Shown in pieces: positions 55,069 through 60,429 of a DNA stretch of 64,000 nucleotides. Location of the stretch: positions 1 to 64,000 of the forward strand of contig DGQF01000060.1 of NCBI GenBank assembly GCA_002389675.1, in the 5' to 3' direction. A program made the position numbers and the translations under genes. The notes beneath the pieces were generated by a model. The model ran no database searches. It saw nothing but the letters and a program-made list of their open reading frames with translations, and was not told where the DNA came from. Each line of letters starts with the position of its first letter. The stretch's first letter is position 1. This DNA is from Gammaproteobacteria bacterium UBA4421 (GTDB lineage: Bacteria; Pseudomonadota; Gammaproteobacteria; Pseudomonadales; Azotimanducaceae).

Positions 55069-56421
55069 ATGATGCAAACCCTTAGCAAGCGTAAGCTGAT
55101 ATTTTTTGGCCTACCGGAATATGCCGTGTACCTGGCCAGCATTCCGGTGGTGTTGTACCTGCCGTTTGTGTATTCCAAAGACTTTGGCTTGAGCCTGACC
55201 GATGTTGGATTAATCCTCATGTTCGGTCGGATTGCCGATGTGGTTACCGATCCCTTGATCGGTTTCTTAAGCGATCGAACACGATCTCGTTTTGGCCGGC
55301 GAAAACCTTGGATTGCCGCGGGCGGTTTGATCATGATGACCTCGGCATTCATGTTGTTCAACCCGGTAATCCAAGTGACCAACACCTATCTCCTGTGCTG
55401 GGCCATATTACTCTGGCTGGGTTGGACCATGGTCAATATCCCCTACTATGCTTGGGGCGCTGAACTCTCAGATGATTACAACGAACGCACCCGAATTACC
55501 GGATGGCGTCAGTTTTTTGGATTTCTTGGCAATGTCAGTGTACTGGCAATACCGGTTTTAAGCGGCCAATTTCTAGGCTATGGCGCCCTACCCAGCGAAG
55601 GTTTGGCCATCATTGGCGGCATGGCCCTAATTGCGTTGCCGGTCCTGATCAGCATAACTTTGCATCAGGTACCCGAGCCAGACCGGTACGGCAAAGCCTC
55701 AAGTTCGCTCCTGCAGAATTTAAAAAAAGTTAAAAAAAATGGCTCCTTCATGCTGCTATTTTGGGCCTTTCTCCTTATGTCGCTGGGCACCGGCTGGGGC
55801 TCAGCGACCTTTATGCTCTTTGCAAGTTTTGTCGTTGAAGCTGAGGGACAAACGCAAGCGATTCTACTGGGCTATTATGGTGCCAACATCATCGCTCTGC
55901 CTATTTGGGTATACATCGCCAATCGCGTCGGCAAAAAAGAGACGTGGATGACTGGCGGCTTGCTGTTTATCGTCGTAACCCCCTGTTTCTTGATCCTGCA
56001 AGCGGGCGATTTAGGTTTGTTCTTTTTGATTCTTGCCTTCTATGGTGTGGCCGGCGGCAATTTTGCCGCCCTGTCAATGTCAATGAAAGCCGACGTCATT
56101 GAAATTGCCGCGCGGCGCGACGGCGAGAATATATCCGGCGCCTACATCGCACTTTGGTCACTGGGACAAAAATTGGTCATGGCACTCGCCCTTGGCATTG
56201 CCTTGCCTTTTCTTGAATGGGTTGGGTTTGACCCTAACGGCGTCAACAGCGCAGCAGAGCTCGATGCACTGAGCTATGTCTATGTCATACCCCCATGGAT
56301 CGCTTACGCTTGCGCCGTCACCGTGTTGTGGAGATACCCGATTACCGAACAGCGCCTGACGCGGATACGCGCGGCCTTACAAGCTCGAGAAGATAGGCGC
56401 GCCAAAAAGACCACCTCATAA
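55069..56421 (+). CDS. GPH-family (MelB-like) cation symporter
   Basis: A 450-residue inner-membrane transporter with about 12 helices, from ATG 55069 (MMQTLSKRKLIFFGL). The conserved GPH segment FGRIADVVTDPLIGFLSDRTRSRFGRRKPWI (cation-binding Asp residues and the RxxRRP loop) is clear, and YNERTRITGWRQFFGFLGN follows. GPH members take up sugars or glucuronides with Na+ or H+; the substrate here is not known. It ends at a terminator shared with the convergent gene at 56506. Confidence 0.9.
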   Translation: MMQTLSKRKLIFFGLPEYAVYLASIPVVLYLPFVYSKDFGLSLTDVGLILMFGRIADVVTDPLIGFLSDRTRSRFGRRKPWIAAGGLIMMTSAFMLFNPVIQVTNTYLLCWAILLWLGWTMVNIPYYAWGAELSDDYNERTRITGWRQFFGFLGNVSVLAIPVLSGQFLGYGALPSEGLAIIGGMALIALPVLISITLHQVPEPDRYGKASSSLLQNLKKVKKNGSFMLLFWAFLLMSLGTGWGSATFMLFASFVVEAEGQTQAILLGYYGANIIALPIWVYIANRVGKKETWMTGGLLFIVVTPCFLILQAGDLGLFFLILAFYGVAGGNFAALSMSMKADVIEIAARRDGENISGAYIALWSLGQKLVMALALGIALPFLEWVGFDPNGVNSAAELDALSYVYVIPPWIAYACAVTVLWRYPITEQRLTRIRAALQAREDRRAKKTTS

Positions 56422-56427
56422 ACGACG

Positions 56428-56460
56428 AAAAGGCCAAGCGCGTTCGCGCCTGGCCTTTTT
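56428..56460. terminator. Bidirectional intrinsic terminator
   Basis: AAAAGGCCAAGCGCG and CGC-CTGGCCTTTTT form a GC-rich stem around TTCG, with a T run on the plus strand and a T-rich tail (TTTTCG) on the minus strand. It ends the GPH transporter gene and serves the MCP-tip gene on the other strand. A second hairpin, CAGGCG (56472-56477) with CGCCTG (56486-56491), lies just beyond. Confidence 0.75.
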
Positions 56461-56505: not shown

Positions 56506-58383
56506 CTAGGCGCTTTTCGCGCCAATGGCATCAATTTTCTTATTGATTTCATCAGTTGCGGTGGCTGTTTGGCCGGCCAGAGTTCTGACATCGTTGGCCA
56601 CCACGGCAAAACCTTCGCCCGCCTGCCCACTCTGCGCAGCTTCAATTGTGGCGTTAAGCGCAAGCAAATTCGCTTGCTGTGCAATGGTATTCATCATCTT
56701 CATCGCGTCACCAATTTCTTGTCCGCTGGTGGATAAGCTTTCCTCTTCAGCGCGCGCCACCTGCGCAGGATCCTTTGCTATATCTTTTGCATTTGCCGCT
56801 GGGTAACTGTGAGGTTCAGCCCAACTTTCTTCGTCATCAGCAATCCACTTTTCATCCTGTGCTGAAGGTTGATGAATGACATCACTCTCACCATCGTTAG
56901 CCGCCAGCGGCGCCGCCAATTGATTTTTAACGTCCTCCGCTTCAAGACTCTCGATGCAGCGACGCAGGTAGAATCCGGCTAACGCCAGCATGACACCGCA
57001 AACCGAGCCAATTAGAGATAGCGAACCAAACCAGAGCAAAGCCACCACGCCGACCATACTTCGATCAACCTCAGTTGCCGAGTCTTTGCCATAGGCATAC
57101 ATGGCCATCCGATAAATCTGGTTTTGATTGATCAACTGGTTGATCTGCGACTGCAAATTACGCTGTTTGTTCTGCAGGACAAATACCTGCTCATCGATCA
57201 CAAAGGCTTTCTCGGTGAATACCGCCATCTCTTGTAATTTGCCGTTTTCGAAACCTGCCAGTTCATCCATTCGCTCCTTGCGAATGCCCGCAAAAAATCG
57301 ACGGTCAGAGGCCGCTTTCGCATATGCTCCGTCGGCAATTGCGTTTGTCTCATCCAAGCGTCTGTTGATTTCCGCTTTAGTGGATTCGATCCGTGCGTTT
57401 AAATCTGCAACTCGACCTTCATACTTGCTGTTAACAAACGCCAACTGCTGACGAAGCTGCGCTTCCATTTGCGCTTGTTGCTCAATCGCTGCTCCGCCCA
57501 GATAGCCTGATGTGACATCAGCAAGCTGCTTTTCTTTAGCTTGTATCAAGCCTCTATATTTGGCATCAACACCGGCTTTCGTGAACAGATTAGCCCCATC
57601 CATGGCCACTGCAAATTCAGATTTCAATGCGGTCAATTCATCCAGCAATCGTGTTCGTTCAGCAGAACTGCCGTTGATATTGCCGAGCAATAACACCGAG
57701 AAACGCTCCTCTACAGCCGCCGTCTCTTCAGCCCACTGGTCATAGTAGCCATCCCGTGTGGCCAACATTTGATCTATTTTCAAACCAAGCTCGTCTTTGA
57801 ACTTGTAGTCTATGCTTCCTAGTTTATTGCGCATGGCAGCGTCAATCTTTACCGCGGCATCCGCAAAGTCACCTTCAACCACCGCGCTCTTACCCTCTAC
57901 ATCAGCGATCAATTCTTCTTCTGTGAACTTGACCACGTGGTTCCGCCGTTTTTCGAGTAATGCAACTTCAGATTCAATACTTTCAATGTTGTTCTTGTGC
58001 ACATCGATGGCGCGATTGAGATTAGAAAAGTTTCGCTCAAAACCATTTAACATCGTCTCGAAGGTGATCAGACAGAGAAACAAAACAAAAGCTAGGAAGA
58101 CGCCCCGCCATATGGGATGTTTGACGGTCATAAACGTATACGTCAAGGGGATTTTACAAAGCTCTACCACCGCAATAAGGATAAAGGGCAGTGCGGCAAC
58201 GCCCACAGCCGGCAAACCTTCCAGCAAGCCCGCGCCGTTTTGGCCACCCAAGGAGTTGAACGCCGAGATGGCAACAACCATCGAAATGGTCAAGCCAATG
58301 GTCACCGCCAAGAACTCTACACACCACGCTAAGCGTATTAGAAACGTCGATTGTTTCGATACATCGGTTCTAGAAAATAACAT
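56506..58383 (-). CDS. Membrane coiled-coil protein with truncated chemoreceptor (MCP) tip
   Basis: A 625-residue protein I cannot assign to a known family. Helices at about 20-41, 57-82 and 94-111 form an N-terminal membrane block; residues about 115-425 are largely charged, heptad-like coiled coil; a further membrane segment lies at 443-473; then an acidic linker (485-545). Residues 555-612 match the methyl-accepting signalling tip ([17 protein letters not shown], then [17 protein letters not shown]), but the long helices that normally flank it are missing and the protein stops 13 residues later. The stop is followed by a terminator, so it is not an obvious frameshift. No che genes are nearby. 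It may be a stress or wall sensor; function unknown. Confidence 0.8.
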
Positions 58384-58710
58384 TAAAATTGCGCCTCTTG
58401 CTGCCTATCGTTAAGGATGCAGGAGCGATCTTTTCTCCTGCGTTATTTGCAGCAAAGTGTAGCGTTCAGACAGGTTGAGCAGACGTGCGTAACCGCACAA
58501 ACCGCTTTGTCGGGCCGCCTTCAGATAGCAGAAATGAGACACTGTCGACGGCAGAAGAGTGCGCCAGTCGACGTCAAGGGATTTGACAAATTATATTGAC
58601 GAGCGCTCTAAAAAGCGCTCGATTTTGCGGGTACCGGTTCGTGCGGAATTAGCACTAAAATCTCAGCCTTGGATCACTCAAGCGCACGCTAAATTTAGAT
58701 GGCAGCAGAC
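58384..58710. other. Structured 327-base non-coding gap
   Basis: No gene found. It holds several inverted repeats: GCAGGAG/CTCCTGC (58419-58441), GTGCG/CGCAC (58485-58498), GTCGACGGC with a bulged partner (58544-58572), and CGAGCGCT/AGCGCTCG (58600-58621). A perfect -35 hexamer TTGACA (58583-58588) lies on the plus strand, with only a poor -10 nearby. Part of it must be leader of the MCP-tip gene. Confidence 0.5.
58600..58621 (-). terminator. Hairpin downstream of DUF6435 gene
   Basis: CGAGCGCT (58600-58607) and AGCGCTCG (58614-58621) form a perfect 8-bp stem with a six-base loop, 90 bases past the DUF6435 stop. A T run is lacking, so efficiency is uncertain. Confidence 0.4.
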
Positions 58711-58878
58711 TTAGAGTGCTTCGATTTTATCGATCTCCGCTTTGATCGTTTGGGCTTGCGCTTCAAGCATGGCATTTTCACGCACGTCACCTCGGCGCAT
58801 CGCATGCATGGCGGCCTCAAGTTTTTGCTGGTAGGCTTTTTTGAGCTTTTTTGTTGGATCTCTTTTGAAAATATTCAT
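58711..58878 (-). CDS. DUF6435 small protein
   Basis: A 55-residue protein starting at ATG 58878: MNIFKRDPTKKLKKAYQQ, then LEAAMHAMRRGDVRENAM and AQTIKAEIDKIEAL. This matches the DUF6435 pattern (short, basic start with DPTKKL, then AMHxxRxGD and a helical end), common in gammaproteobacteria. Function unknown. A longer open frame to 58977 is not supported by the family. It runs head-to-head with the PIF1-like helicase, with a palindrome between them (58894-58909). Confidence 0.8.
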   Translation of the reverse strand: MNIFKRDPTKKLKKAYQQKLEAAMHAMRRGDVRENAMLEAQAQTIKAEIDKIEAL

Positions 58879-58893
58879 AACTGGCCGCCTGAC

Positions 58894-58909
58894 AATGTGT
58901 CTACACATT
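58894..58909. promoter_or_regulatory. Palindromic operator candidate
   Basis: AATGTGT (58894-58900) and ACACATT (58903-58909) are perfect inverted arms around CT, flanked by TGAC on the left and GTCA on the right. It sits 16 bases upstream of the DUF6435 start and 77 upstream of the helicase start, a good place for a dimeric repressor. No regulator gene is nearby. Confidence 0.5.
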
Positions 58910-58986
58910 ACGTCACCAAACGTGAAAATATCGTCAGCTCTGTGCTCACCGGCGGTGCAAAAACAAACCACCATCAATCAAGCTTT

Positions 58987-60429
58987 ATGAGTAAGACCAT
59001 TGATCGACTAACCCGCCAACTCAAAAGCCATACCGCGGGCGTCTTAAAAGACTTTGCGCAAATCTCATCCACCGCAACTAAAGCTCAAAGCTCAGATCGG
59101 CACTCTGAGCGACAAAACCTTGACGGTGCAGTTTCTGAGCAGATTGTATTACCTGATCATTACGCTTTAGACCCGGAAGGTCAGGCTGCTTTCGACGCCA
59201 TTGAGAACAACTCACCCGTTGTATTTGTTACGGGCAGAGCCGGGACAGGTAAGAGCACATTTATCGCGTTTTTGAAAAAAACACTCCAAAAAAACAGCGT
59301 GGTATTGGCACCTACCGGCATTGCCGCCCTGAATATAGGCGGACAGACCATACACTCTTTCTTCAAGTTTCCGCCGCGAATGTTTGAAAACAGAGAGATC
59401 AAATCGCGTAACGATACGCTCATCAATCAGCTGGAATTAATCATTCTAGACGAAATTTCTATGGTCAGAGCCGACTTACTGGATCATATGGATTATGCGT
59501 TGCGCCAATGGCGCCAGCGAAAGGAACCCTTTGGTGGGGTACAAATGCTGCTGGTTGGTGACCTTTTACAATTGCCTCCTGTTATCGCCGGCGCAAAAGA
59601 GCGCACTTACTATGACAGACGCTACGCCAGTCCCTGGTTTTTTAGCGCAGCTGTGTTTCGTAACCTACCCGTGTTTGCCGTTGAGATGAAGCAGGTCCAC
59701 CGACAAACAGAGGCTCACTTCATCGCTATCCTGAATCGAATCAGGACCAATTCAGATCATCGTAGCAGCGTCGCCGAGATCAACCGAACCTGCTTCAGAG
59801 ATCAGTCGGCCGGCGCATCACAGCTGACTTTAACCGCAACCCACCGCCAGGCGCAGACCATCAACCAAAGTGAGCTGCAGTTGCTGAACACGCAATCACA
59901 AGAGTATAACGGCACCACCCGAGGGCATTTTGCCGATGATGAACAACGACTGCCCGCACCGATGCATCTGAACCTAAAACTGGGTGCACAAGTGATGGTC
60001 ACTAAAAATGTCGCGGGTGCGGTTAACGGGACACTCGCGCGGGTGATCTCACTCAATTCACATACGATCGGGATCAGTTGTCTTAATGATCAAACTGAGG
60101 TCATTGTCAGTCGTGAAATTTGGGAGCAATACACCTACCACTGGGATGTGATCGAACAGGGCATCGTCGCAGAGGTTGTCGGCCAGTACGAACAATTTCC
60201 GCTTACCCTTGGTTGGGCGGTAACTATTCATAAGTGCCAAGGCCTAACTTTAGAATCGGTGACGATTGATCTTGGTCGCGGCGCATTTGCGCCGGGTCAA
60301 ACCTACGTCGCACTGAGCAGGTGCCGATCGCTACAGGGCATCACGCTAAAGAAACCCATCGCTATGCGAGATGTTGTCGCTGATGCCACGGCACTGAAAT
60401 TTTATGCGGCTTTGTTTGATGAGCGTTAA
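58987..60429 (+). CDS. PIF1-like (superfamily 1) DNA helicase
   Basis: A 480-residue helicase from ATG 58987 (MSKTIDRLTRQLK); a longer frame from 58699 would overlap DUF6435. Motifs: VTGRAGTGKSTF (Walker A), LIILDEISMVRADLLD (Walker B), GVQMLLVGDLLQLPPV (motif III), GWAVTIHKCQGLTLESV and YVALSRCRSLQG (motifs V-VI). PIF1-like helicases unwind DNA 5'-3' and resolve G-quadruplexes or R-loops in eukaryotes; the bacterial role is little known. Its stop overlaps dusC's by four bases. Confidence 0.88.
   Translation: MSKTIDRLTRQLKSHTAGVLKDFAQISSTATKAQSSDRHSERQNLDGAVSEQIVLPDHYALDPEGQAAFDAIENNSPVVFVTGRAGTGKSTFIAFLKKTLQKNSVVLAPTGIAALNIGGQTIHSFFKFPPRMFENREIKSRNDTLINQLELIILDEISMVRADLLDHMDYALRQWRQRKEPFGGVQMLLVGDLLQLPPVIAGAKERTYYDRRYASPWFFSAAVFRNLPVFAVEMKQVHRQTEAHFIAILNRIRTNSDHRSSVAEINRTCFRDQSAGASQLTLTATHRQAQTINQSELQLLNTQSQEYNGTTRGHFADDEQRLPAPMHLNLKLGAQVMVTKNVAGAVNGTLARVISLNSHTIGISCLNDQTEVIVSREIWEQYTYHWDVIEQGIVAEVVGQYEQFPLTLGWAVTIHKCQGLTLESVTIDLGRGAFAPGQTYVALSRCRSLQGITLKKPIAMRDVVADATALKFYAALFDER

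Follow-up and report, generated by a model that had tools for sequence, protein, structure and literature searches.

In the window, which is the whole 64,000-nucleotide stretch of DNA that was analysed, a gene on the minus strand encodes a 625-residue protein in which a conserved membrane protein (hereafter the body) is followed by a linker and by the hairpin tip of a methyl-accepting chemotaxis protein (MCP). Its reading frame was taken from the ORF list, starts with ATG and has an N-terminus that lines up with the starts of its homologues in an alignment. The features of the gene and its surroundings are:

55075..56421, plus strand, MFS_2 sugar transporter, convergent (context)
56428..56459, no strand assigned (folds on either strand), terminator-like hairpin between the 625-residue protein's gene and the convergent MFS gene
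56506..58383, minus strand, whole gene, 625 residues (ORF list, Pfam, N-terminal alignment with homologues)
56509..56748, minus strand, MCP hairpin tip, residues 546-625 (Pfam, MCP alignment, AlphaFold2)
56749..56961, minus strand, acidic linker, residues 475-545, of which 495-537 are of low confidence and taken as disordered
56944..58383, minus strand, body, residues 1-480, a conserved family with no Pfam domain above cut-off
56965..57060, minus strand, membrane segment 4, residues 442-473 (hydropathy)
57064..58038, minus strand, long helical domain of coiled-coil type, residues 116-440, probably periplasmic (AlphaFold2 helices, loop charges)
58048..58104, minus strand, membrane segment 3, residues 94-112, followed by NGFERNF, invariant in 40 sequences (hydropathy)
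58129..58215, minus strand, membrane segment 2, residues 57-85, with E74, K77 and P79 invariant in 40 sequences (hydropathy)
58258..58341, minus strand, membrane segment 1, residues 15-42, with W20 and E23 invariant in 40 sequences (hydropathy)
58699..60429, plus strand, PIF1-like helicase, divergent (context)

This layout, a long helical domain set among four membrane segments and followed by a disordered acidic linker and an MCP hairpin tip, had been read in a preliminary description as three N-terminal membrane helices, a coiled coil, a fourth helix, an acidic linker and an MCP tip, and hydropathy, Pfam and AlphaFold2 all bear it out. The same description gave the gene its own terminator. 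A terminator-like stem of 14 pairs does start 46 bases past the stop codon and beats 200 of 200 shuffles in folding on both strands (z about -4.4 each), in a region with 6 terminator-like sites against 2.5 expected from shuffles; its ownership is less certain, as the stem may serve the convergent MFS gene as well.

Membrane segments were defined by hydropathy and their orientation by the net charge of the loops in 40 family members. The N-terminus is net positive in 34 of them, loop 1 in none and loop 2 in 39; the helical domain is net positive over its first 20 residues in 21 members and over its last 20 in one. Loop charges thus agree with an N-terminus inside and a helical domain outside, the charge being ambiguous at the start of the domain and in the tail. 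Since the first 20 residues of the tail are net positive in only 16 of the 40 members, its inside placement rests on the segment count, by which it should be cytoplasmic. The body is probably an inner-membrane protein of four segments, whose long helical domain probably lies in the periplasm and whose tail varies among members. In transmembrane MCPs it is ordinary for a domain to sit between membrane segments, and the position of the sensor-like coiled coil is not the oddity that had been suggested.

AlphaFold2, run on a 40-sequence alignment in which the tip had no other MCP row, predicts an all-helical protein (mean pLDDT 79, pTM 0.42), with pLDDT below 50 at residues 495-537 and a hairpin made of helices 539-585 and 591-624. 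The tip piece is nearly symmetrical, with about 40 residues on either side of a bend at the place where MCP tips bend, and the stop falls about 38 residues past this bend. When the body fold was compared with the PDB by Foldseek, there were 743 matches at E <= 10, none of which reached E <= 0.001, and the top ones are long helical proteins that are uninformative. A profile search of the body against PDB sequences found 17 matches, all of them weak (best E 0.005). The homologue search and structure prediction proposed at the outset have supplied a body family and an all-helix model, and no informative fold match in the PDB.

The MCP identity of the C-terminal hairpin is clear. PF00015 matches residues 540-622 (E 2.2e-22; 80.2 bits against a cut-off of 34.6) and is covered from position 19 to 100 of 172, which corresponds to the conserved hairpin tip only; by both profile and AlphaFold2, the long antiparallel helices that carry the methylation region beside the tip are absent. 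No Pfam match to MCPs is found in the body. The tip is about 75-80 residues long, rather than the 60 first estimated. From the N-L-L-A-L-N motif to the end, 39 MCPs (of 40 rows listed) have 144-154 residues and the 625-residue protein has 54, the stop codon ending the tip where the compared MCPs continue for about 90-100 residues more. The protein thus resembles MCPs (PF00015) in its tip sequence, in its predicted hairpin and in being a transmembrane protein whose hairpin probably faces the cytoplasm. Unlike them, it has no flanking adaptation helices, no HAMP and no known ligand-binding domain, and several MCP-conserved residues of its tip are changed. A phage family of the PHROGs collection, phrog_8572 (533 positions), also matches the tip (56509-56748, E 6.2e-24), so MCP-like tips occur in that collection. 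Plasmid records that match number 26; among the 15 listed, 14 do so in the tip region and one in the body (Microvirga, 26%, residues 17-216).

A whole-protein homologue search, in which 7996 candidates were scored, placed the body in a family of its own. Among the best 120 of 355 matches, 119 are other proteins, of 455-549 residues and 47-63% identical to the body (residues 1-480). Scanning GTDB contigs turned up 40 loci, of which 39 contain the body and the remaining one, L062, is an MCP match only. Hosts include Shewanella, Glaciecola, Endozoicomonas, Marinomonas, Rheinheimera, Hydrogenovibrio, Litorirhabdus, Luminiphilus, Woeseia-like and other Gammaproteobacteria, as well as two Campylobacterota MAGs and one MAG labelled Alphaproteobacteria. 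Judged on sequence, this is a clearly defined, unnamed family of mostly marine Gammaproteobacteria, whose members, from Shewanella, Endozoicomonas, Glaciecola, Marinomonas and marine Pseudomonadales, are annotated as hypothetical or 'coiled-coil domain-containing'. At cut-off, the 625-residue protein has no match among NCBIfam models, and among Pfam models only that of the tip; DUF948 is its next-best Pfam match and stays under its cut-off (21.1 versus 37.2 bits), and neither HAMP nor a known sensor domain is matched by Pfam at E up to 10. Five other members have no Pfam model at cut-off.

Conservation in the family is strongest at the membrane. Besides W20 and E23, E74, K77 and P79, and NGFERNF, the invariant residues in 40 sequences include N421, Q422, Y424 and R425 before segment 4 and W451, S454 and L455 inside it. 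The 625-residue protein has the full-length similarity of the family, with its membrane segments and its NGFERNF, NQ-YR and W--SL motifs. The other members seen have a short or unrelated tail and, as a norm, no extra domain there, in contrast to the linker and MCP tip found here. Long tails occur in a Cellvibrionales MAG (L042:5950-7875; low-complexity, A/T/D-rich) and in Rheinheimera (L060:5935-7728; valine/lysine-rich). The tail looks like the part of these proteins that is most open to evolutionary change. ORF clustering around the family gene at the 40 loci revealed no constant neighbour across genera. Some neighbours are common within Marinomonas and within Glaciecola, and those crossing genera are ABC-type ATPases in 5 loci and M16-like peptidases in 3, both named from sequence and at varying distance and orientation, together with a response-regulator cluster found at differing distances in two Campylobacterota and six Marinomonas loci. 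Having no fixed neighbour from one genus to the next, the gene looks solitary.

The combination of body and tip was seen in a single protein. PF00015, taken from precomputed annotation, is absent from all 119 other homologues among the best 120 of 355. A junction search with residues 415-625 gave 443 bits for the 625-residue protein and 122 bits for the next one (P0002), over the body only; among the best 120 of 814 junction matches, no other protein joins body and tip, and the sole other PF00015 row is a globin protein (P0121). Within the taxonomic family, 206 genomes were scanned, only 6 candidates being scored where the first look gave more than 6: the body is present in 4 genomes (five genes), bears a tip only in the source genome (G000), and is matched weakly in the coil region in two further genomes (E 6.7e-5 and 2.1e-4). 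The 40 genomes of the genus, scored in full, gave the same outcome. On the GTDB contigs, 38 of the 39 body loci show the C-terminus and none has a tip, as judged by eye and, for L042 and L060, also by Pfam scan; the remaining locus (L040) runs off its contig. In a tree of 40 bodies with a midpoint root only, the gene pairs with P0002 (100/100) amid tip-less relatives, the next fork having 86/86 support and the Rheinheimera branch being very long. A single gain of the tip would be by far the simplest history. Among the orthologues seen the tip is therefore not conserved, which the preliminary description had named as an outcome that would count against it. Its view that the gene is not a truncated or frameshifted copy of a longer MCP holds: the body belongs to an independent family, nowhere else seen with the tip, and nothing MCP-like was found by eye in the 84 bases up to the convergent stop.

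The tip has also departed from the MCP pattern at the residue level. Positions are numbered as in E. coli Tsr, and those of 394, 402 and 404 agree with PMC6954272 and PMC6746300. Among 119 near MCP tips, T375, N381, E385, R388 and G390 are invariant, and the tip here has T375A and R388Q. It also has A389S (A in 118 of the 119), Q at 391 (E in 80, D in 39), E at 394 (R in 64, K in 54, S in one), E402D (E in 118) and R at 404 (K in all 119), the last being the residue of E. coli Tsr. Two blocks, N376-A387 and F396-A400, match the consensus. Of the positions counted as CheW/CheA contacts, E385, F396 and V398 are kept, 394, 402 and 388 are changed, and 404 has the Tsr residue R; for 394, 402 and 404 the contacts come from PMC6954272 and PMC6746300. 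In PMC6954272, simulations of the E. coli core unit bring R394 and E402 into contact with CheW (pairs E18-R394 and R40-E402); the partner of R394 on CheA P4 is E361 (PMC6746300).

In a comparison with 30 non-redundant MCP tips, 39 columns are conserved, and the tip deviates at 7 of them (V364A, I368M, T375A, R388Q, A389S, E402D and K404R), three of these changes being mild (I368M, E402D and K404R). When the 30 tips are left out in turn, 28 depart at 0 or 1 column, P0209 at 3 and P0121 at 6. Relative to its closest listed MCP (P0122), 7 of the tip's differences fall in the 39 conserved columns and another 7 in 19 variable columns, versus a conserved-column mean of 0.58 and a maximum of 4 in 336 MCP pairs with 10-18 differences; as the columns were defined on the same 30 MCPs that supply these pairs, themselves found by likeness to the tip, the query looks more deviant than it would otherwise. 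In 35 tips of the genome's own MCP class, mostly from genomes of the taxonomic family (L001, L010-L017, L020-L022, L062 and L064-L085), 21 have Q385 and 21 have M388, versus E and R in the near MCPs, and the loss of R388 alone is consequently no proof of lost function. The tip has the pattern of relaxed MCP constraint, which by itself does not prove the loss of all function.

The nearest relatives of the tip (best 120 of 283) are MCPs, many with PAS or HAMP, apart from P0121. The closest listed is P0122, a 1006-residue MCP with PAS domains (75% identity), followed by tips at 57-70%. The PilJ-like receptor of the same genome reaches 47%; elsewhere in the taxonomic family, the highest identity across the complete tip is 53%, and one 64% match spans 47 residues at a contig end. 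Such low values in its own taxonomic family make an MCP of a type other than the PilJ-like receptor the probable donor, and capture from the genome's own MCP is unlikely (47% versus 75% for P0122). Some changes in the tip may predate the fusion. The exception P0121 is a globin-domain protein of 353 residues with two PF00015 stretches, each a hairpin tip. It stops shortly past the second of these, has 6 conserved-column deviations in its best tip and is possibly another tip-only design. The literature searched, which included PMC7666581 and PMC10653840, yielded no description of bare-tip proteins; we do not claim that there is none.

We consider it likely that the C-terminus is a captured and decaying MCP fragment on a conserved membrane protein. 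As the tip is missing from the listed relatives and has lost signature residues, the combination is probably an evolutionary accident and not a new kind of receptor. An in-frame fusion in this lineage would have put a piece of an ordinary MCP hairpin behind the tail of a body-family protein. The body may keep its ancestral job without the tip, and we would guess at an envelope-spanning sensor, a tether or a scaffold. The tip would be a passenger under relaxed MCP constraint and might serve at most as a weak ligand for CheW or CheA-P5, or as a helical oligomerisation element. Speaking against a passenger, the reading frame continues uninterrupted through a symmetrical hairpin in which the blocks N376-A387 and F396-A400 keep their sequence, as a hairpin that still folds or binds something would. 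In addition, the protein's 90%-identity cluster comprises 20 member sequences, which may carry the tip as well. If the tip is inert, this is a natural case of an MCP fragment decaying at the end of another gene, and a caution against 'methyl-accepting chemotaxis protein' as a name for such proteins.

An unlikely alternative is a functional receptor with a bare tip, in which the periplasmic helices would sense the state of the envelope and the hairpin would bind CheW or CheA-P5 and modulate ChpA without methylation, the output being Pil-Chp (twitching motility, surface response). The genome (3.07 Mb, 98% complete, a draft of 62 contigs) has two PF00015 matches, the 625-residue protein and the PilJ-like receptor, three CheW domains and one CheA dimerisation domain (PF02895), in a ChpA-like protein of 1765 residues; at this completeness, neither CheR (PF01739) nor flagellin (PF00669) is matched. 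A CheA, which the preliminary description had proposed to look for, is thus present and of ChpA type. The PilJ-like MCP, the three CheW domains and the CheA all lie on contig C16 and the 625-residue protein's gene on C47, in line with the earlier remark that no che genes are near. On C16 (L063:6034-14567, within C16:1-18000 of 35,707 bases), the order is two response regulators, CheW, MCP, ChpA and CheW, a typical Pil-Chp order from which the genes are named. The only CheA match being of ChpA type, signalling, if any, would probably go to the ChpA-like kinase. In favour of a working receptor are this side-by-side set of partners, a tail that should be cytoplasmic and a predicted hairpin, and the missing CheR match would be harmless to a receptor that lacks methylation helices. 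In addition, MCP chains of similar size, 85 residues in 3ur1 and 90 in 4jpb, are present in the PDB. In 4JPB, CheA P4 and P5 are combined with CheW and a TM14 fragment according to PMC6746300, which means that a bare tip can join a CheA/CheW complex. These chains are, however, shortened receptor pieces made visible in structures, with R, E and K at 388, 391 and 394 versus Q, Q and E here.

Several points weigh against such a receptor: the absence of the tip from all other family members seen; E at 394, a contact of CheW (PMC6954272) and of CheA P4 (PMC6746300) that is R or K in 118 of 119 near tips; D at the CheW contact E402 (PMC6954272); and a likeness of only 47% to the co-resident PilJ-like tip. 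That receptor (G000:C16), the genome's only other MCP match and clustered with its only CheA match, has a full signalling domain (profile 2-171 of 172), with Q385 and M388 versus E and Q in the tip. In it, about 190 residues separate the tip from the second membrane segment, which as a helix would measure roughly 25 nm. About 20 helical residues, the 43-residue low-confidence stretch and a hairpin of about 5 nm would span this distance only when nearly stretched. Linker and hairpin would have to reach far to the CheA/CheW layer of the PilJ-like receptor, and the hairpin lacks the long helices that would carry it there. Signalling through CheA/CheW, as first suggested, is then possible in principle with one CheA and three CheW domains, and unsupported by conservation, tip residues and length. 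It would be improbable, in particular, that we are dealing with a minimal adaptation-free receptor, an MCP-unrelated periplasm-spanning helical sensor wired to ChpA by a captured MCP tip. If it were so, a hairpin of about 80 residues on a flexible tether would suffice for a new chemosensory input, and a very small natural module would plug a foreign membrane protein into the CheA/CheW system.

It is also rather improbable that the hairpin was co-opted as a dimerisation or trimerisation module, or as a CheW-titrating decoy, for a non-chemotaxis function of the body. Such a role would fit the two core blocks being kept while the charged positions 388, 391 and 394 change, and a family tail that is variable and long in L042 and L060, but the homologues seen manage without such a module. 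That the junction of body and tip is a chimera of assembly or binning, as a combination confined to one protein of a 62-contig draft genome might suggest, is very doubtful given one open frame through body, linker and tip, followed by the stem 46 bases on and the convergent gene, a GC3 of 0.53 in the tip versus 0.54 in the body (0.40 in the linker), and a protein cluster of 20 member sequences, which may share the junction.

Returning to the captured fragment, its insertion site was searched for in 39 congeners through the flanking helicase and MFS genes, and an empty site was not established. At E <= 1e-60, the PIF1-like helicase has no copy in these congeners and the MFS gene has relatives in 18 of them; beside the MFS relatives of three congeners, neither helicase nor body was found by eye among the neighbouring ORFs. 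The stretch with the helicase (58699-60429) may be a recent acquisition.

Whatever the fate of the tip, the body family deserves study in its own right, with no Pfam model above cut-off in the six members scanned apart from that of the tip. In the two Campylobacterota loci, the body copy (L047:3713-4984 and the matching place in L048) lies 11 bp from a convergent gene, which in L047 encodes a response regulator with GGDEF.
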